From a virus: 32,541 bases of DNA. Location of the stretch: positions 1-32,541 of IMG/VR virus record IMGVR_UViG_3300035698_015992; one strand, 5' to 3'. The notes below the pieces were generated by a model. That model had not been told where the DNA came from and searched no databases. It saw only the letters and a program-made list of their open reading frames with translations. Made by a program: the position numbers and the translations under genes. Shown here piece after piece: positions 1 to 10,169 of this stretch (within the stretch, counting starts at the first letter, position 1; each line of letters opens with the position of its first letter).

Positions 1-806
1 ATACCTTCTAGGGGTACAATTGTTAAGTCTTCTGTTATTATTTTAGGCTGCATCTCTTTATGAAAGTTTTTCATAAAGGTTCTTAATTTACTAATCTCTA
101 GATAATCCAAGTCTGGATTATCAACCATATCTGTGGATAATCCACAGATATTTGACAGGAATTGCCAAACTTCCTTAGCTAAAGTACCACCTTGAGTGTG
201 GCTCATTAAAATTTTACTTAGGGAGTAAATACTATTGCTTTCATTCAGAGTTACCTCATGTTCCGCCATTTTTTGCCTTTCCTCGGCAGAGGCTATGCCA
301 TCATCAAGCTCAGATGTTGCCGTAGCTTGCGCCTTGGCAATTTCTTCAGCTTCTAATTTCTCAATAGCCCTCTCTTCCGAAGAGGGGTTAAAAGGTAATT
401 TTGGTAAGAAAGTATTTTTCTTACCAAGCCGCATGCCTTGCATGTTGCCATCTAGATAATACTCGGCTTTTATAAACTCCGTTGCTTCCAACAGGAAGTC
501 GGGCAGATTACGTTTGTGCTTAACCAACAAATCTTCTAGATAATGGCGGGCTGGAAGATGGTGCGCCAACCTTTCTGCACCATTTTTAGCCCTATCGCGA
601 AGTTTATTAACCTCGCAATAATGCTTCCAGCCCGTAGTTTTGCCGTTATGAAGCTTTAATAAAGTTTTATATTTATAACTACCAAGCACCGCTTGGTACA
701 AGGTTATATTTTCGCTTTCTTCACCATATTGCAAGATTAAACCCGCCACTTGGCTCTCAAAAGACTCAACACTTGCAGCGTCTAACGCTGCTAATTCCTT
801 ATTCAT
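1..806 (-). CDS. Unrecognised protein, partial at the left edge; possible replication-module gene
   Basis: An open minus-strand frame starts at ATG 804-806 and runs off the window with no stop, giving 268 visible codons. The start is supported by AAGGGG a few bases upstream. The product begins MNKELAALDAAS; it is soluble, with no signal peptide or membrane segment. It has a basic central part (LRDRAKNGAERLAHHLPARHYLEDLLVKHK is broken here as LRDRAKNGAERL, then LVKHKRNLPDF) and an acidic, probably coiled-coil part around residues 145-185 (SSEERAIEKLEAEE, then SAEERQKMAEHE). I do not recognise the family. It lies beyond the primase operon and has its own candidate promoter (982-1010). The DNA contains many perfect inverted repeats and a DnaA box, which recalls an origin inside an initiator gene such as lambda O. 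That link is inference. Confidence 0.7.
   Translation of the reverse strand, partial: MNKELAALDAASVESFESQVAGLILQYGEESENITLYQAVLGSYKYKTLLKLHNGKTTGWKHYCEVNKLRDRAKNGAERLAHHLPARHYLEDLLVKHKRNLPDFLLEATEFIKAEYYLDGNMQGMRLGKKNTFLPKLPFNPSSEERAIEKLEAEEIAKAQATATSELDDGIASAEERQKMAEHEVTLNESNSIYSLSKILMSHTQGGTLAKEVWQFLSNICGLSTDMVDNPDLDYLEISKLRTFMKNFHKEMQPKIITEDLTIVPLEG
56..78. repeat. Perfect inverted repeat, 10-bp arms
   Basis: CTTTATGAAA (56-65) and TTTCATAAAG (69-78) are exact reverse complements separated by three bases, inside the leftmost coding region. Confidence 0.85.
101..122. repeat. Perfect inverted repeat, GATAATCC arms
   Basis: GATAATCC (101-108) and GGATTATC (115-122) form 8-bp perfect arms around a 6-base spacer. 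The same GATAATCC half-site recurs in the centre of the 127-151 palindrome, so this region carries a repeated half-site in both orientations. Confidence 0.85.
127..151. repeat. 25-bp palindrome containing a perfect DnaA box
   Basis: ATATCTGTGGAT (127-138), a single central A (139) and ATCCACAGATAT (140-151) make perfect 12-bp arms. Positions 132-140 read TGTGGATAA, the exact complement of the DnaA box consensus TTATCCACA; the opposite orientation carries TAATCCACA, one mismatch from consensus. It lies inside the coding region of the leftmost gene. DnaA binding is inferred from the consensus match. Confidence 0.7.
401..427. repeat. Perfect inverted repeat, 11-bp arms
   Basis: TTGGTAAGAAA (401-411) and TTTCTTACCAA (417-427) are exact reverse complements with a 5-base loop. 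A shorter one, CTCTTC/GAAGAG with a one-base centre, lies just to the left near 373-385. Confidence 0.85.
547..634. repeat. Nested inverted repeats, outer 11-bp and inner 7-bp arms
   Basis: The outer arms CGGGCTGGAAG (547-557) and CTTCCAGCCCG (624-634) are perfect. Directly inside, ATGGTGC (558-564) pairs with GCACCAT (577-583). The inner stem abuts the left outer arm, so a compound fold is possible on either strand. Confidence 0.8.
674..708. repeat. Compound inverted repeat, 8-bp and 6-bp stems
   Basis: TACCAAGC (680-687) and GCTTGGTA (691-698) flank the loop ACC. TATAAC (674-679) and GTTATA (703-708) extend it outward with a four-base bulge on one side. It lies inside the leftmost gene. 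Confidence 0.85.
775..791. repeat. Perfect inverted repeat near the start of the leftmost gene
   Basis: GCAGCGT (775-781) and ACGCTGC (785-791) form 7-bp arms around a 3-base loop, only 13 bases inside the start codon. A hairpin here could affect translation initiation of that gene. Confidence 0.8.
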
Positions 807-1210: not shown

Positions 1211-1280
1211 ACCCCCAAAAGAAAACCGTTTACCCCCAAAAGAAAACCGTCTACCCCCAAAAGAAAACCGTTTACCCCCA
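1211..1280. repeat. 21-bp tandem repeats, three copies plus a partial
   Basis: Units at 1211-1231, 1232-1252 and 1253-1273 each read ACCCCCAAAAGAAAACCG followed by TTT or TCT; a partial ACCCCCA follows at 1274. The middle unit differs by one base. Each unit carries a copy of the left arm of the downstream hairpin. Confidence 0.9.
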
Positions 1281-1299
1281 AGGTAAACGGTTTTCTTTT
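1259..1299. terminator. Bidirectional intrinsic terminator at the end of the primase operon
   Basis: The left arm AAAAGAAAACCGTTTACC (1259-1276) and right arm GGTAAACGGTTTTCTTTT (1282-1299) pair perfectly over 18 bp with loop CCCAA. The stem ends in TTTTCTTTT in both directions of reading, so it can stop leftward transcripts from the primase gene (stop at 1327) and rightward transcripts from 1061. On the leftward transcript the first arm could pair with any of three downstream copies, giving alternative stems. Confidence 0.75.
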
Positions 1300-1326: not shown

Positions 1327-4300
1327 CTAGAATAAAGGGTAAGATGTGATAGGGGCAGAATTCAAACTGCCTTCCATTCTCTTGTTCGCAAGAGTGCAAC
1401 CCATGTAGAAGCGGTTGGAGGGGCTGTTGAGATACGCTATCACTTCTGGCTTTACCTTTAAGCTTCTTAGAGTTTCCACTAGAAAGTTCCTCCTGTCCTC
1501 GGTAATAAGTATAATCCCCAGATCCGAAAGCATCATGCTCCAGTCCTTTATAAAGTCCTTCGGTGAAGCACCCAAAGCAACCCCGTGATCTCTCAATAAG
1601 TTCCGAGAGTATTCCAGTATCAAACTTTCTGATATGAGGGTAAAACCATTCCAAACCATATTCATAAACAACCTCTCGTTTACCGAATCCCCGCTCGTTA
1701 ATTTTGAGACTAATTTCTGATAAAATTTCTCTTGAGTTAGAATTTTTCCCGTATAAAGTTGCCCTAACGAGGTATAGATATTTATCATATTGTAGTCCTC
1801 TTTTAACCTCTTTAAGGTACTCTCGGACGCCTTGTTCTCCGTATTCCAAAGAAAGGATAAAAGATTGTAATAGTGAGGGGTATAAATGCCATTGGGGATT
1901 ATTAAAGGCAGTATTCGCTCCACCGATACCATAGCATCGGGAGGCAAAGTCAACGCCGATGCTGTTAACTCCGACAAGTGAGGTATAAGGTCCGACACTA
2001 ATACTTGCGTCCGTAAGCAACCCTTTAGCACCATCTTGGGAAGCGTTATTATCTCGGACGCATAGTAAAAAAAACGTGTACTTGAATTCTGAGATGCCAT
2101 CTCCTGTACACAAACCTTATGACTAGAAGGTAACGTGTAACCCTTATTGTCTATAAGCCTCTTCATACCCTCTACTGCCCAAGCAACAATAGCTTCTCTC
2201 TCCTGAGCAATGATATACTTATCCATGTTAATGACCTTTTGAAAGTCTGAGATAACCCGATTAAACGAAAGTATCAAAAACCTTCTGTTAAACCCCTCCG
2301 ACACATCACTGGTTTTCGGTAAGTGATTAGATCCAAACCAATGTGAAGCTGTTGGTTTCAGGTTAAAGACATCCCCTCCCTTTATCTCAGCAGTAACCTC
2401 GGTCCCATCTACAATCTCCTTAAACGATTTCCCGTCAATCCTCTGCTTATCCGATAACTCTCCACAGATATTGATACGCTTACCTGCTAAAAACCTAGTG
2501 GTAAAGCGTTCGCCCCACTTCTCAGGAGGAATAACCGATATAGACTTCTCGCTAAATAACTGCTTAATGATGTTAAGCAATGTCGTCTTACCCGAAGAAG
2601 CTACCCCATACAGCAAAAAGGCTCTTTGATAATCTGTAGCCACACCGAATAACGCCGCAGCTAACATCTCTTGAAGGGCAAGCACTTTGTCAGTAAAGTC
2701 TGGGTCTCTACCCCAGCAATCTTCCAGAAAATTATAAAAGTTAGAGCAATAATGTAAGTCATTTTGCTCCTCGGAATAACAAAAAGGTAACGTTGAAGTC
2801 TCCCCGTACTCCGGTGAGTGGGGCAGTATCACTAAGGAGGCATTTACACCATTAGTCTCTACCTTCAAATAACAATTTGCAAAGTTAATCCCTGTACTAA
2901 TACCCGTCTTAATCTCCTGAGAAGTTAACTTAGTCATCACTCTGTAGATACCTCTGTGATCCCCCTCCTTCTTAGCAGCATTATAGTGCCCATACTGCTC
3001 TGCCACATACTTTAATATGCTCTGCTCAGACAAAATCTCCCAGTGAGATCCCTGCCACTGATACATAAAACCATTCGCAAACGCTACAGGATTGAGTTTT
3101 TCGTAATCTATTAACACTTGCTGAGCAATCTCCGTGTGACTCTCACCCGTCAAAGCTCCCTTTATCAGTTCCCGATGCTGTAACTTTATAGTCGCCAAGC
3201 TCACATTTAGCGGCTTAGTCGTATAGGTGGAGATAAGGTGCATAAGAGAGTTGGTCTCCAGCTTTGTCAACGAAGGAGAATGTATTATCTCCTTCAATAT
3301 CACCATAACATTTGACGTTCCATTAAAGTTTATGTCCTCCAATTGCCCCTCATCAGCTTGATATAGTGGCGCGAACTGGTGTATAATTTTTTGTTGCAAC
3401 GTTACATAGTCACATTCTATAAACTCTTCATTGAGTAGCGAGAGTAGGTTCATCTTAATGTTAGGGTCTAAATCTAAATCCCAACCCACAGGCAAGATAC
3501 GTGGTTTAACAGGATTCTCACAATCCTTCACGATAAACTCAATCAGCTTCTCTCTTCCCTTATTAATATCCAGAGGATCTCCTACCACTTTTTGAACAAG
3601 GGAATCATGCCACGTTGTAAGCCTCTCCAGAGCTTGGTTAAGCGATAGAGAACCCCTGAAGATGTCAGACGCTAGCAGTCCAGCCATAGACACCATCTTG
3701 CTATCTCTGGCTCCCGCAGGGACATAGTCTGTCAGTATAAGGTTACGACTAGAGTGAGGTGCGCGAACAGGGAGAACTTTCCGTAGCTGCTCAAACAAGT
3801 TATCGGGCAGTGGTGGGAAGTGCTGGATGTCGTAAAGGTTAACGTTTGACGTGTAAGGTCTCAGCGTTTCCGGGTGAATAGAAGGGGGAAGTACAACTTG
3901 ATTCCCAGTAGATAACAGCTCAAGAAAGGGCTTCTTATCTTCAGGTAACTGAGACTCCAGAAAGAACGCCTTCTTACGCGCGAAGTTAGGGGTGAACTTG
4001 TACGCAAGTACAAATCCTTTCTTGCCTCTACGCTTCCAAGGAGACTGCGGAAGTACCGTTAATATATAATTGATAATATCTTCATCGTCAGTGTCAATAT
4101 CTAGAAAAACAAGGTTAGATTGTCCGCCAGCAGGTAGCCCTATATTGTAAGGTGCATCTCCTCTGTGAGAATTTATCTTGCTTATCCAACGTTGCTGTTG
4201 CTCAGCATCTGGCATCGTATGACACCACCGTGTCCAATCCGTTTCAAAAGGTCGCTTGGATAAAGGAGACAGAGGGATAGCGGGAAGCCCTACATTCCAA

Positions 4301-4359
4301 TAGGGTGTAAAGAGTTCCTCCGCAGTAGGCGGAAAATCTTGATAATAATTATACGTCAT
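1327..4359 (-). CDS. Bifunctional primase-polymerase / SF3 (D5-type) replicative helicase
   Basis: This 1010-residue protein would prime and unwind DNA for phage replication. The N-terminal archaeo-eukaryotic prim-pol domain spans about residues 15-195, with NIGLPAG at 72-78, the catalytic acid pair in FLDID (D87, D89) and the STGNQVVLPPSIHP segment near 150-163. The SF3 helicase part has Walker A GVASSGKT (585-592), Walker B INICGE (629-634), motif C WFGSNHLP (674-681) and an arginine finger at RR 692-693, preceded by a D5_N-like stretch. About 300 C-terminal residues are not recognised. It is last in the leftward operon, 26 bases after the 159-residue gene. Its ribosome site is weak: GGAT inside a GGATATATCC palindrome just upstream of the ATG. 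Confidence 0.93.
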   Translation of the reverse strand: MTYNYYQDFPPTAEELFTPYWNVGLPAIPLSPLSKRPFETDWTRWCHTMPDAEQQQRWISKINSHRGDAPYNIGLPAGGQSNLVFLDIDTDDEDIINYILTVLPQSPWKRRGKKGFVLAYKFTPNFARKKAFFLESQLPEDKKPFLELLSTGNQVVLPPSIHPETLRPYTSNVNLYDIQHFPPLPDNLFEQLRKVLPVRAPHSSRNLILTDYVPAGARDSKMVSMAGLLASDIFRGSLSLNQALERLTTWHDSLVQKVVGDPLDINKGREKLIEFIVKDCENPVKPRILPVGWDLDLDPNIKMNLLSLLNEEFIECDYVTLQQKIIHQFAPLYQADEGQLEDINFNGTSNVMVILKEIIHSPSLTKLETNSLMHLISTYTTKPLNVSLATIKLQHRELIKGALTGESHTEIAQQVLIDYEKLNPVAFANGFMYQWQGSHWEILSEQSILKYVAEQYGHYNAAKKEGDHRGIYRVMTKLTSQEIKTGISTGINFANCYLKVETNGVNASLVILPHSPEYGETSTLPFCYSEEQNDLHYCSNFYNFLEDCWGRDPDFTDKVLALQEMLAAALFGVATDYQRAFLLYGVASSGKTTLLNIIKQLFSEKSISVIPPEKWGERFTTRFLAGKRINICGELSDKQRIDGKSFKEIVDGTEVTAEIKGGDVFNLKPTASHWFGSNHLPKTSDVSEGFNRRFLILSFNRVISDFQKVINMDKYIIAQEREAIVAWAVEGMKRLIDNKGYTLPSSHKVCVQEMASQNSSTRFFYYASEIITLPKMVLKGCLRTQVLVSDLIPHLSELTASALTLPPDAMVSVERILPLIIPNGIYTPHYYNLLSFLWNTENKASESTLKRLKEDYNMINIYTSLGQLYTGKILTQEKFYQKLVSKLTSGDSVNERLFMNMVWNGFTLISESLILEYSRNLLRDHGVALGASPKDFIKDWSMMLSDLGIILITEDRRNFLVETLRSLKVKPEVIAYLNSPSNRFYMGCTLANKRMEGSLNSAPITSYPLF

Positions 4360-4385
4360 GGGGATATATCCAAAAAGGGATTAGG

Positions 4386-4865
4386 TTAAACTACGGACTT
4401 TAGCTGTCTTAAGAATTGTTCTTTCTGTTCCGCCGACAGGAAATCTTCTATAGTTTGCATTACAATTAACTTGAATTTTTCTATGTCAATGCTCTCATCT
4501 AACTTGCTAAGCACATCACTCATCTTCGTAACAGTTGTATTAATAGCCGCAATTACCGCTACCTTCTCCTTAGTAGTTAACGCTGAGAAATCTTCGCGTA
4601 TCTCCTGAATTTGTGCCAGAGAAGTTGTAAGCTCCGTGTATAAATCTACCCTACGTTGTAAAGCTTCATTAGTATTTGAAACCTTAACCACTACTGGTAA
4701 GCCGTTAGCGGGAACCTGCACTTGAAGGGCGACTAGCTTTTTAAGTTGCGAGATTAGCTTTGCACCATAAGGAGACTTGTCAAAGTACTGAGGATCGTCT
4801 TTCGCATACTTCTCAATTAAGATTAAATTTTGTTGTAAGTTGGAATCTAACTCTGGATAAAACAT
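4386..4865 (-). CDS. Unrecognised 159-residue protein; possible terminase-small-subunit or replication accessory
   Basis: The ATG (4863-4865) follows directly on the TAA of the upstream winged-helix gene, so the two are translationally coupled. The sequence is largely helical. The second half (TTKEKVAVIAAINTTVTKMS, then LDESIDIEKFKLIVMQTIED) resembles the helical oligomerisation regions of some phage small terminase subunits, but I see no diagnostic motif. There are no cysteines, membrane segments or signal peptide. Position beside the Nu1-like gene and across from the large terminase makes a DNA-packaging role possible; co-transcription with the primase makes a replication role equally possible. 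Confidence 0.8.
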   Translation of the reverse strand: MFYPELDSNLQQNLILIEKYAKDDPQYFDKSPYGAKLISQLKKLVALQVQVPANGLPVVVKVSNTNEALQRRVDLYTELTTSLAQIQEIREDFSALTTKEKVAVIAAINTTVTKMSDVLSKLDESIDIEKFKLIVMQTIEDFLSAEQKEQFLRQLKSVV

Positions 4866-5126
4866 TTAAACCCCAACTGATGAAGTTTGAGATTGCCCAG
4901 AACTTATACGGTTTAATGTTGCAAATTTACTGTTAGGTAGAGGAGATAGAACCGCATCCTCTGATAGGTTTAAGAATTTCCTTACATCCTCTTCTGTATA
5001 ATATATTCTACCAATGTCGTCCTTTCGTATAGGATTCTCATTGTTGTTCTTGATGTGCCAGTTATCCACCTGACGGGGACCCGTGGCACATAATAGGATA
5101 AATTCGTTTCTCGTATAACGTAACAT
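4866..5126 (-). CDS. Small winged-helix DNA-binding protein, Nu1-like
   Basis: The 86-residue product begins MLRYTRNEFILLCATGPRQV. Residues 5-55 follow the pattern of the lambda Nu1/MerR-type winged helix: a first helix, a turn, a recognition helix (PRQVDNWHIKN), a wing (RKDDIGRIYYT) and a last helix (EEDVRKFLN). The C-terminal 30 residues look disordered. AAAGGA precedes the ATG at a good distance, and the promoter at 5156-5185 serves it as first gene of the leftward operon. It could be the DNA-recognition half of a small terminase, or an autorepressor acting on the adjacent palindromes. Lambda Nu1 is about twice this long and lies upstream of the large subunit on the same strand. Confidence 0.8.
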   Translation of the reverse strand: MLRYTRNEFILLCATGPRQVDNWHIKNNNENPIRKDDIGRIYYTEEDVRKFLNLSEDAVLSPLPNSKFATLNRISSGQSQTSSVGV

Positions 5127-5145
5127 TTTTCTTGTCCTTTATTGT

Positions 5146-5156
5146 TGACTAAGTCA
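5146..5156. promoter_or_regulatory. Palindrome TGACT-A-AGTCA at the leftward start site, possible operator
   Basis: A perfect 11-bp palindrome covers the predicted start of the leftward transcript (about 5149) and touches its -10 box. A protein bound here would block the leftward promoter. Confidence 0.45.
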
Positions 5157-5185
5157 TTATAAAAACATAAAAGCCTTGATGTCAA
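5156..5185 (-). promoter_or_regulatory. Near-consensus sigma70 promoter of the leftward operon
   Basis: Read on the minus strand: TTGACA (5180-5185), 18 bases, TATAAT (5156-5161). Both hexamers are perfect consensus. It drives the winged-helix gene, the 159-residue gene and the primase-helicase. The leader to the ATG at 5126 is only about 23 bases. Confidence 0.8.
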
Positions 5186-5200
5186 TATAAAAAACATCAA
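5176..5200. promoter_or_regulatory. Inverted repeat TTGATGT-N11-ACATCAA over the leftward -35 box
   Basis: Perfect 7-bp arms at 5176-5182 and 5194-5200 have centres 18 bp apart, which fits a dimeric regulator. The left arm overlaps the -35 hexamer of the leftward promoter, and the right arm lies 22 bases before the terminase start, so one bound dimer could affect both directions. Confidence 0.5.
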
Positions 5201-5222
5201 AAAGCAATACGGAATATAAAAA

Positions 5223-7019
5223 ATGTACGATAATCACTTACAATCCTTCATAGCGGACTTAGAAAGTAAGCTGTATCAAGATGCCGCAGGACTCTCCACC
5301 TACGATTGGATCAATCGCAACACAACCCTGAATGGAAAACCTTTCACCTGTGATCGCTATCCTTTTCAAAAGGACATTTTAAACGATACAGGTAATCGGT
5401 TAGTGGTGAAGAAAATCTCTCAGGTAGGTTTAACTGAGATACAGATGCGTAAGATGGCGTGTTTCCTCATGTTGAACCCCCACACCCAAGGGATATTTTC
5501 GCTACCAGATAAGAATTTGATGAAGAGGTTTTCTCAAACTCGCCTACTTCCTATGATAAATGAGGACGCTGTCTTTAATAGAGTAGCGGGAGGAGGTAAG
5601 CCTACCCGCAACGTGGACCTGATTCAGTTTATGCGTTCATTTCTAAACATCGTGATCGGCAGCGAGTCCTCTGCTACCAGTATTACAGGGGACATATTAG
5701 CTGTAGATGAAGTTGACTTGACCTCTCCAGAGGTGTTGGCTCTATTTGACTCTCGGCTACAGAACTCGGACTTCGGAATACGTTACGATTTCTCTACTCC
5801 CACCTACACAGACTTCGGAATAGATGGGCTATACAAGGTAAGCGATCAAAGAGAATATATGCTGAAGTGCGACTCCTGTGGGCATTGGCAGGTTCCAGAC
5901 TTTACATGGGACTTCGTCAGGATAGACGGGCTAAAGAACGCTGGAGACTTTCCCATTGAGGAGTTAGATCTAACTAAGTTAGACACCATAGAGCTTCACA
6001 AAGACAGCTGGCTCGCTTGTGAGAAGTGTGGAGAGGAGTTAAACCTATCGGAGAAAGATGGAGCTCAGCGTGAATGGGTAGCCCAAGAGGCAGGGCGTTC
6101 AAGCTACGCGCATGGGTATCAGGTAAGACCCTTCAGTAGCAATCGTCTCAGCATAAGTTACATTATCCAGAGGCTTCTAACTTACAGGAATCAGGATTTC
6201 TTAAGGGGTTGGTATAACACGGTTCTCGGTAGGGATTACGCAGATGCTTCTGCTCGGATCCAAGAGTCCGACATCCGAGCCTGTTTGATGAGTGCGGATA
6301 CCGCTTTAGTTAAGGGAGACTCTATTTGGGTGGGCATTGACGTAGGAATTGACTGTCACATAGTGATAGGGAAGGCAGACAAGTCCAGCAGCGTAAAGGT
6401 TTTGAAGTTTGACATCTGTCCAGCGTCAGGGCTTAAGCAGTACGTAAAAGCATTGCAGGAGAACTACAGCATATCAGGAGGGTTGATTGATAGATACCCG
6501 AACACGACACTCTCACAAGAGATTGCAGAGATCACTAAGGGTACAATTCTCCCTTGCGAGTATGGGCAAAGCGGTAACATAGAAGAGAAGATAGACTTAG
6601 TCACATTTGAACAAAGTTATCTAAGGGTCAACAGAACTTGGGCACTAGATTACGTTGCCAAGATTGTGCGTAATCATTGGGTAGAGTTTTACGGGTATCT
6701 AGAATTCAAGCCTAAGATTATAGATCATCTACGAAACATGATCCGAGTTGAAATCCCTGAGAAACTTGCAAAGTGGGAAAAGCTAAATACCGAGGATCAC
6801 TTCTTCCACGCTTTAAACTATATGGTAACTAGTATCAGGTACAGGGAGTGGAAGTACGGAATAGATTTGCTGAGTGGGGATAATAGAGGCTGTGTAGATT
6901 TCGGCGTAATTGAAGGTGTGGGTAAGTCTCTAGGAATGACTGACATATATGGATCAATCATGGACGGAAAAGCTTCGGACTACGCGCCAATGTTTGGACT
7001 TGATAATTACAACTTTTAG
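5223..7019 (+). CDS. terL: Terminase large subunit, GpA type
   Basis: This ATP-driven DNA-packaging motor and nuclease cuts concatemers and fills the prohead. The 598 residues include a lambda-A-type Walker A variant, KKISQVGLTE (63-72), Walker B ILAVDEVD (158-165), a coupling motif STPT (191-194), a zinc-ribbon-like insertion with C216, C219, C266 and C269, and an RNase H-like nuclease with acids in WVGIDVG (D373) and GLIDRYPN (D423). Lambda A is about 641 residues. It opens the rightward structural operon, with only a weak GGA before the start and no clear rightward promoter in the 96-base divergent gap. Confidence 0.95.
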   Translation: MYDNHLQSFIADLESKLYQDAAGLSTYDWINRNTTLNGKPFTCDRYPFQKDILNDTGNRLVVKKISQVGLTEIQMRKMACFLMLNPHTQGIFSLPDKNLMKRFSQTRLLPMINEDAVFNRVAGGGKPTRNVDLIQFMRSFLNIVIGSESSATSITGDILAVDEVDLTSPEVLALFDSRLQNSDFGIRYDFSTPTYTDFGIDGLYKVSDQREYMLKCDSCGHWQVPDFTWDFVRIDGLKNAGDFPIEELDLTKLDTIELHKDSWLACEKCGEELNLSEKDGAQREWVAQEAGRSSYAHGYQVRPFSSNRLSISYIIQRLLTYRNQDFLRGWYNTVLGRDYADASARIQESDIRACLMSADTALVKGDSIWVGIDVGIDCHIVIGKADKSSSVKVLKFDICPASGLKQYVKALQENYSISGGLIDRYPNTTLSQEIAEITKGTILPCEYGQSGNIEEKIDLVTFEQSYLRVNRTWALDYVAKIVRNHWVEFYGYLEFKPKIIDHLRNMIRVEIPEKLAKWEKLNTEDHFFHALNYMVTSIRYREWKYGIDLLSGDNRGCVDFGVIEGVGKSLGMTDIYGSIMDGKASDYAPMFGLDNYNF

Positions 7020-8903: not shown

Positions 8904-10169
8904 ATGCGCAGATTACCTATAAATCAAAAAATTTCAGAGCGACTCTCCATAGTTTTCGGAGCAGATTACAGTTCTTCAAACATTGCAGTATTTGAAACAG
9001 TGGCATTTACCACGCTACCCTTGAGCAAACCCAGACATTTAGTAGATGGTGGGAAAGCTGAAGCTTCCCTACTATACGAGATGGCAGAATTCGTAAACTC
9101 TAAAGGTTATGTTCCGCTACAGCTTATGCACGACACTGGGGTCTTACCCGCAGGGACGATCTTCTACAGTGAAGTCCACGGGGCAGAGGATAGGGGTGAG
9201 AGCTACTCCGAATTGAGACACTTATTTCTAGTTTCTCTAGACACTTCTGAAGGTCAAGACTTAGTAGCTAAGATAGAGTCCGGAACTATTAATGAAGTGT
9301 CTGTTGGATTCAGCATGAACAATTTAAAGTGTTCAGAGTGTGACTTTGACTACATGTCTGCTGACGCTGATGTCATCAACTGGATAGATCAAACCTGTTC
9401 TGAGGGACATGTAATCGGCGTTGATGGAGTTCACGTAGTGATCTCCTCGTTAAATCGTTACGGTGAAATGTCTTTAGTAACCGCCGGAGCAGCTAAAAAT
9501 GCTAAGATTCAGTCTAAAAGACAGTCCAAATTGTTAACAGATAACTTTGGGCTTGCAGCTTCTAACAAATCTGATATTATAACATTTAAACAAATTCCAG
9601 TCTTTTTAACCCTTGAAGGGGAGAGTAAAATGCCAAATGAAAATCCAGTAGTTCCAGTTGCAGAAGTTCCAGTTGCAGAAGTTCCAGTTGCAGTAGTTCC
9701 AGTTGCAGAAGTTCCAGTTGCAGTAGTTCCAGTTGCAGTAGTTCCAGTTGCAGAAGTTCCAGTTGCAGAAGTTCCAGTTGCAGAAGTTGAACAACTCGGA
9801 GCAACTTTTGATAAACTTGTTGAGCTTACAGCGGACAATAAAATTTTGACTGCTCAGGTGAAAACTTTAGAATTGAAACACACCGAGTTTACAGCTTTAA
9901 AAGCTGAGGCTGAGGTCAACAAAAAAGACCTAGCGTTGTGCTTAGGGTTCATTGAAAAAAGTTACACACATCTTTCAGTTGCTTCAGGCAACTCTAAGGT
10001 GGAAGCTCCTAAAGGTGTCGTGGAATTACTTCAAGGTATTGCTTCCTTCCAAGAGAAACTTAGTAAGTTGCCAACAGGTGGGGTATCCTTAGCCGCAGAT
10101 AACTTGACAAGAAAAAAAGATAGTAATTATAATAAAGATGCTATATCATCTTACAAGACTAAAAAATAA
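8904..10169 (+). CDS. Prohead protease fused to a C-terminal scaffold domain
   Basis: Residues 1-205 resemble the HK97/herpes-type prohead serine protease: the catalytic His is probably H76 in PLQLMHD and the Ser probably S133 in NEVSVGFS, and the domain closes with GEMSLVTAGAAKNA. A possible zinc-binding insert has C143, C146, C165 and H169. Residues 243-421 are a separate low-complexity and coiled-coil segment: nine PVAEV/PVAVV repeats, then VELTADNKILTAQVKTLELK, as in scaffolds. A strong internal start (9630) would make this part alone. The protease would remove the scaffold during capsid maturation. Confidence 0.88.
   Translation: MRRLPINQKISERLSIVFGADYSSSNIAVFETVAFTTLPLSKPRHLVDGGKAEASLLYEMAEFVNSKGYVPLQLMHDTGVLPAGTIFYSEVHGAEDRGESYSELRHLFLVSLDTSEGQDLVAKIESGTINEVSVGFSMNNLKCSECDFDYMSADADVINWIDQTCSEGHVIGVDGVHVVISSLNRYGEMSLVTAGAAKNAKIQSKRQSKLLTDNFGLAASNKSDIITFKQIPVFLTLEGESKMPNENPVVPVAEVPVAEVPVAVVPVAEVPVAVVPVAVVPVAEVPVAEVPVAEVEQLGATFDKLVELTADNKILTAQVKTLELKHTEFTALKAEAEVNKKDLALCLGFIEKSYTHLSVASGNSKVEAPKGVVELLQGIASFQEKLSKLPTGGVSLAADNLTRKKDSNYNKDAISSYKTKK
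9630..10169 (+). CDS. Internal in-frame scaffold protein (Nu3-like) from a second start
   Basis: ATG 9630 is in frame with the protease gene (codon 243) and is preceded at six bases by AAGGGGAG (9616-9623), one of the best ribosome sites in the window. The product (MPNENPVVPVAEV...) would be 179 residues: the PVAEV repeat, a coiled coil and a basic polar tail (LTRKKDSNYNKDAISSYK). Lambda makes its scaffold Nu3 in the same way from inside gene C. The arrangement gives many scaffold copies per protease. Confidence 0.75.
   Translation: MPNENPVVPVAEVPVAEVPVAVVPVAEVPVAVVPVAVVPVAEVPVAEVPVAEVEQLGATFDKLVELTADNKILTAQVKTLELKHTEFTALKAEAEVNKKDLALCLGFIEKSYTHLSVASGNSKVEAPKGVVELLQGIASFQEKLSKLPTGGVSLAADNLTRKKDSNYNKDAISSYKTKK
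9651..9785 (+). repeat. Nine-unit 15-bp coding minisatellite (VPVAE/VPVAV)
   Basis: Nine contiguous units of GTTCCAGTTGCAGWA encode VPVAE or VPVAV; the only variable base is A/T at position 14, giving the order E E V E V V E E E. The near-perfect identity at DNA level indicates recent tandem expansion. It lies at the N-terminus of the internal scaffold product and works as a flexible linker in the fusion. Confidence 0.95.

Follow-up and report, generated by a model that had tools for sequence, protein, structure and literature searches.

The window, which is the whole 32,541-nucleotide stretch that was analysed (IMG/VR record IMGVR_UViG_3300035698_015992, positions 1 to 32,541), comes from an uncultured virus whose record is classed as linear, and such records are often fragments. 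Its first open reading frame, ORF1 (3-806, minus strand), encodes 268 amino acids, runs off the contig end and has its start codon at 804-806, with a good ribosome binding site, AAAGGGG, at 812-819. Two conserved landmarks follow, a primase with Prim-Pol and DUF5906 domains (1327-4359, minus strand) and the large subunit of terminase (5223-7019, plus strand), the latter used as the anchor for aligning relatives. The terminase, primase, portal and major head protein grouped the window with the 80-kb siphophages JWF, Seuss, Lumi and EAb13. The identity to the JWF-type relatives was 35-43% for the terminase and 33-41% for the primase, and the homologues of terminase, primase and portal were arranged in the same order as in the JWF/Seuss-type siphophages. 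The window covers part of the genome of a relative of these four phages. Its primase also had a long C-terminal stretch, approximately residues 780-940, that was mostly missing from JWF, Seuss, Lumi and EAb13. Elsewhere in the window, a PVAEVPVAVV tandem repeat (approximately 9600-9760) was located inside an open reading frame (8904-10169) two genes ahead of the major head protein, and the encoded protein matched PHROG 37797.

No homologue of ORF1 was found in IMG/VR, the GTDB genomes, the phages of INPHARED, the plasmids of PLSDB, PHROGs, Pfam or 163 related loci. The sole GTDB match, to a SusD-like protein, was rejected as a chance match of 45 residues. The AlphaFold model of ORF1 alone had a pLDDT of 42 and was set aside.

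The nucleotide sequence of ORF1 contained many perfect inverted repeats. A hairpin with 10 bp arms and a loop of 3 (56-78) was followed by an adjacent pair at 101-151, consisting of a 9 bp hairpin with a loop of 4 (101-122) and a 12 bp hairpin with a loop of 1 (127-151), in which the half-site GATAATCCA occurred three times. The 127-151 palindrome included a perfect consensus DnaA box, TTATCCACA, on the minus strand at 132-140. Farther along were a perfect hairpin with 11 bp arms and a loop of 5 (401-427), a three-way arrangement in which an outer stem of 11 bp (547-557 paired with 624-634) enclosed two smaller hairpins (547-634), a hairpin with an inner stem of 8 bp and an outer stem of 6 bp (674-708), and a perfect hairpin with 7 bp arms and a loop of 3 (775-791). 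An imperfect palindrome at 369-387, CCTCTCTTCCGAAGAGGGG, was weak and at the level of chance. All of these main arms had been reported in an earlier note on this DNA, which gave the 101-122 hairpin correctly except for its arm length (8 bp instead of 9 bp); the 5-6 bp items that it also included, at 213-229 and 485-498, were ordinary and no more frequent than expected by chance.

The repeats continued beyond the gene. Directly upstream of ORF1 there was an AT-rich tandem array of period 14 (816-872, 4.1 copies), and next to it a perfect AT-rich hairpin with 10 bp arms and a loop of 2 (874-895). A second DnaA-box-like site, TTATACACA, was located on the plus strand at 983-991, so that the only two matches to TTATNCACA in the window were both within its first 1 kb. 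Another tandem array, of period 21 (ACCCCCAAAAGAAAACCGTTT, 3.4 copies), occupied 1211-1281 and was overlapped by a perfect 18 bp hairpin with a T-rich tail (1259-1299, minus strand) just downstream of the primase gene, which is probably the terminator of that gene. The window hairpins were mostly unlike one another, and the only recurring elements were the half-sites GATAATCCA and GCTTGGTA, three times each. A single repeated palindromic element was rejected because the stems differ, as the earlier note had maintained.

Shuffling that kept the protein and the codon counts showed that the anomaly was real. ORF1 had five perfect arms of at least 8 bp with loops of up to 5, compared with 0.41 expected, and none of 4000 shuffles reached five, so chance was rejected as the source of the hairpins. 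When loops of up to 20 were allowed the count was 6 versus 0.6-0.8 expected, and for arms of at least 9 bp it was 5 versus 0.15-0.35, although three arms within 101-151 overlap and these counts are partly dependent. The claim of the earlier note that the protein sequence does not account for the hairpins was likewise supported. The folding energy of ORF1 relative to codon shuffles corresponded to z = -7.7 for the sense strand and -9.6 for the antisense strand, while 13 other gene stretches of the window gave values between -2.8 and +1.2. Similarly, the density of arms of at least 9 bp was 6.2 per kb in ORF1 and 0.10 per kb in the next 31 kb. These results confirmed that the palindrome anomaly of ORF1 is strong and that no comparable excess is present in the other genes of the window. 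An amplification chimera at the contig end is an unlikely origin, since the palindromes are several, small and different, lie in an intact frame of 268 codons, and belong to a region that is also enriched in independent contigs.

The location of ORF1 corresponds to the slot of one gene in the related phages. The JWF/Seuss/Lumi/EAb13-type phages have 80-kb genomes with direct terminal repeats of 1.7-2.3 kb. The repeat occupies 1-1748 in Seuss, 80235-82411 in EAb13 and, by PhageTerm, 80255-82492 in fJoAci01, and that of Lumi was reported to be 2298 bp by PhageTerm (PMC9959647). Measured from the terminase start, the repeat is found about 3.5-6.4 kb upstream in all four, and it holds one main gene of 195-265 amino acids on the primase strand at the ORF1 slot. 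ORF1 itself is on the primase strand at -5.2 to -4.4 kb from the terminase start. Phages of the JWF/Seuss/Lumi/EAb13 type resemble the window in terminase, primase, portal, gene order and the presence of a gene of 195-300 amino acids on the primase strand in the terminal slot. They differ from it in that the terminase and primase are only about 33-43% identical, the terminal genes cannot be aligned to ORF1, and ORF1 is far richer in internal hairpins than their slot genes, which are not hairpin-rich themselves. Profiles of the terminal-slot genes fell into several families, too diverged to align, none of which reached another family or ORF1, even when the profiles were iterated. Since the profiles do not extend to ORF1, its assignment to the terminal repeat of its own phage is one that we infer from position only.

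Relatives were gathered with terminase and primase profiles, and 112 distinct phages were aligned on the terminase start. Arms of at least 9 bp occurred at 0.3-0.76 per 500 bp between -3.5 and -7.5 kb, as compared with 0.01-0.21 per 500 bp between -3 and +3 kb, a low-density zone that comprises the primase, terminase and portal region. The stretch from -3.5 to -7.5 kb, within which the terminal repeat of the mapped relatives falls, was the richest, or among the richest, parts of the genome in the five long genomes examined. The enrichment was 7-fold for loops of 0-5 and only 1.4-fold for loops of 101-200. Tandem arrays were concentrated in the same region, with 0.20-0.27 per 500 bp at -4 to -5.5 kb and 0-0.07 between -3 and +4 kb, and the two arrays of the window (period 14, 816-872; period 21, 1211-1281) sit at this peak. 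Smaller, secondary array peaks were seen in the structural region of the group's loci, at +4 to +4.5 and +6.5 to +7 kb. Open frames of at least 130 codons located between -5 and -3.5 kb contained 22 arms of at least 10 bp when 2.6 were expected. The greater part of this excess came from about a dozen of 73 phages, with the window in second place.

Two kinds of palindrome were distinguished in this region. In several relatives, one phage-specific dyad of 17-20 bp was repeated three to six times in the region 3.5-7.5 kb upstream of terminase; phages with a repeated dyad specific to them were L130, L102, L105, L123, L003 and the clade formed by L015, L016 and L145. Such dyads, for example ACTGCCAAnTTGGCAGT in L130, AAGTGCGACnGTCGCACTT in L102 and AAAGTGCAGnnCTGCACTTT in the L015 clade, are candidate operators of a regulator. 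Phage operator arrays built of repeated dyads are described as stoperator-like, and they match the repeated dyads of the relatives, while the window hairpins mostly differ from one another. Mostly heterogeneous hairpins with short loops made up the second kind, seen in the window, L127, L117 and L121, and those of the window, L117 and L127 reached into coding sequence.

The earlier note had listed a structured regulatory mRNA and an origin inside the gene among the possible meanings. If the coding strand acted as a structured mRNA, with a role in translation control, stability or attenuation, the sense RNA would be expected to fold strongly, and it does (z = -11.7 versus dinucleotide shuffles and -7.7 versus codon shuffles). 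However, the antisense strand folded as strongly or better (z = -9.6), leaving no bias toward the sense strand. The stems were distributed evenly over codon phases, 2/2/2 in ORF1 and 21/20/17 in the hairpin-rich open reading frames of the group, which means that they do not track the freedom of synonymous sites. Compensatory pairs in the stems of the relatives numbered only 1 in 420, and there was no match in Rfam. An exception was seen in the L015 clade. In L015, L016 and L145, approximately 4.35 kb upstream of terminase, paired hairpins in the leader of the terminal gene were swapped for hairpins of different sequence in each phage, which favors an RNA and possibly represents a covarying RNA or DNA element. 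On balance, an mRNA structure was disfavored and we regard it as an unlikely explanation of the ORF1 hairpins. Relatives of the hairpin-rich gene of L117 were sought for a covariation test and the search returned the same contig only.

The palindromes of the region were better preserved in aligned relatives than the flanking sequence, 17 of 39 remaining intact compared with 5.7 expected from flank identity, a figure that owes part of its size to the L015/L016/L145 clade and to intergenic sites. Apart from the leader hairpin of that clade, this pattern fits sites kept by virtue of their sequence and not as RNA helices. Taken together, the evidence argues for DNA-level dyads or hairpins that belong to a terminal-repeat module over a structured mRNA.

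The second of these meanings was a phage replication origin, in which the hairpins, the AT-rich 14-mers, the 21 bp iteron-like array and the DnaA boxes would have a common purpose. The arrays at 816-872 and 1211-1281 and the presence of both DnaA-box matches of the window in the first kb are what such an origin might contain. Against this, the enrichment of DnaA boxes in the group was weak (0.044 per kb versus 0.021 ± 0.012 in the control). The GC-skew extremum in the region was a maximum in three of four genomes and was absent in the fourth, and skew is confounded by transcription. Since a skew maximum within the repeat region is more in keeping with a genome end, we consider it quite improbable that the region is an origin, and the suggestion of one inside the gene found no support.

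A more serious rival is that the hairpins arose from mutation as a by-product, with no function of their own. In a terminal gene that evolves fast under weak constraint, perfect inverted and tandem repeats would be created by template switching within hairpins, or quasi-palindrome correction, and by replication slippage. Several observations are in accord with this explanation, 1) the stems are heterogeneous, 2) the loops are short, 3) the stems are blind to both frame and strand, 4) tandem arrays are enriched in the same region, and 5) the slot genes are too diverged to align. Moreover, template switching has been reported to reshape coding sequence (PMC8604942). Template switching would be expected to leave clusters of multi-base changes on a single arm. 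Changes confined to one arm accounted for 9 of 48 broken stems in the relatives, none of which came from the window, as compared with 6.2 expected, which is no clear template-switch signature and weighs neither for nor against this origin in the window. The palindromes of the region also survived about three times as often as would be expected from flank identity. A mutational origin stays in contention, given that tandem arrays are enriched together with the hairpins and that the gene is weakly constrained, and we judge it to be a distinctly possible, though not a probable, account of the hairpins.

The closest known analogue is the injection stop signal (iss) of phage T5, which lies inside the T5 terminal repeat and in which repeats, inverted repeats, palindromes and DnaA boxes are reported to abound (PMC13250531). 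Used as a positive control, the T5 iss had 3.0 arms of at least 9 bp per kb, compared with 0.47 per kb in the 12-50 kb interval of T5, and a tandem array of period 23. The corresponding values for positions 1-1330 of the window were 6.0 per kb and two arrays, together with both DnaA-box matches. The first-step-transfer region and iss of T5 (Demerecviridae) are similar to the window region in their dense palindromes, tandem array and DnaA-type box, and in a place within the direct terminal repeat, which for the window is deduced from position. There are also clear differences. The T5 iss is essentially non-coding and 1 kb long, while the window hairpins sit in a coding gene; the T5 terminal repeat is 10 kb, while that of this group is about 2 kb; and DnaA boxes are at best weakly enriched in this group. 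A tblastn search for T5 A1, A2 and dmp in 189 sequences (the related loci and the window, which is partial) returned no homologue. The window region may therefore be said to resemble an iss-type terminal module by analogy, and it is not classed as one.

Our preferred reading, advanced tentatively and with slightly less than even confidence, is that ORF1 fills the terminal-repeat slot of a JWF/Seuss-type siphophage and that its hairpins are part of a DNA-level terminal module rich in palindromes and tandem repeats. ORF1 is best read as an extreme member of this module of the JWF-type phages. The position of the module and its repeat-rich character would be kept in the lineage while its sequence turns over rapidly. 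In several of the palindrome-rich relatives, phage-specific dyads recur around the small terminal genes, an arrangement in keeping with operators recognized by a phage DNA-binding protein. The most likely use of the elements, by analogy, would be as sites for binding or folding at the end of the genome, which may regulate the first-expressed genes or serve as a pause or handling signal while the DNA enters or is packaged, a role like that proposed for the T5 iss. For the hairpins of ORF1 in the window, such a function is one that we infer. Of the meanings suggested in the earlier note, sites for proteins that act on DNA, or a DNA-transfer stage, remain candidates and come nearest to the pattern in the relatives. 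Points against the terminal-module reading are that the window hairpins lack one common motif and in this respect are unlike clear operators, that the slot genes of JWF, Seuss, Lumi and EAb13 are not hairpin-rich, and that the excess in the group comes mostly from about a dozen phages. A more specific proposal, which we consider doubtful, is that the JWF-type phages have a terminal module conserved in position and free in sequence that is selected for its density of short-loop hairpins, a physical entry or packaging signal that is here written into a protein-coding gene.

Functional hairpins would point to a terminal-repeat signal common to a widespread and little studied group of phages, and they would make this group a second case, after T5, in which the palindromes at a genome end could be related to DNA entry, early regulation or packaging. 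Mutational hairpins would instead make the terminal repeat of these phages a natural hot spot of hairpin-templated mutation inside a gene. On either reading the pattern can be measured over dozens of phages. The closest parallel to the window was L127, in which approximately 20 heterogeneous perfect hairpins with arms of 8-26 bp were found in 4 kb, about 3.8-7.9 kb upstream of terminase (2801-6778 of the reversed locus).
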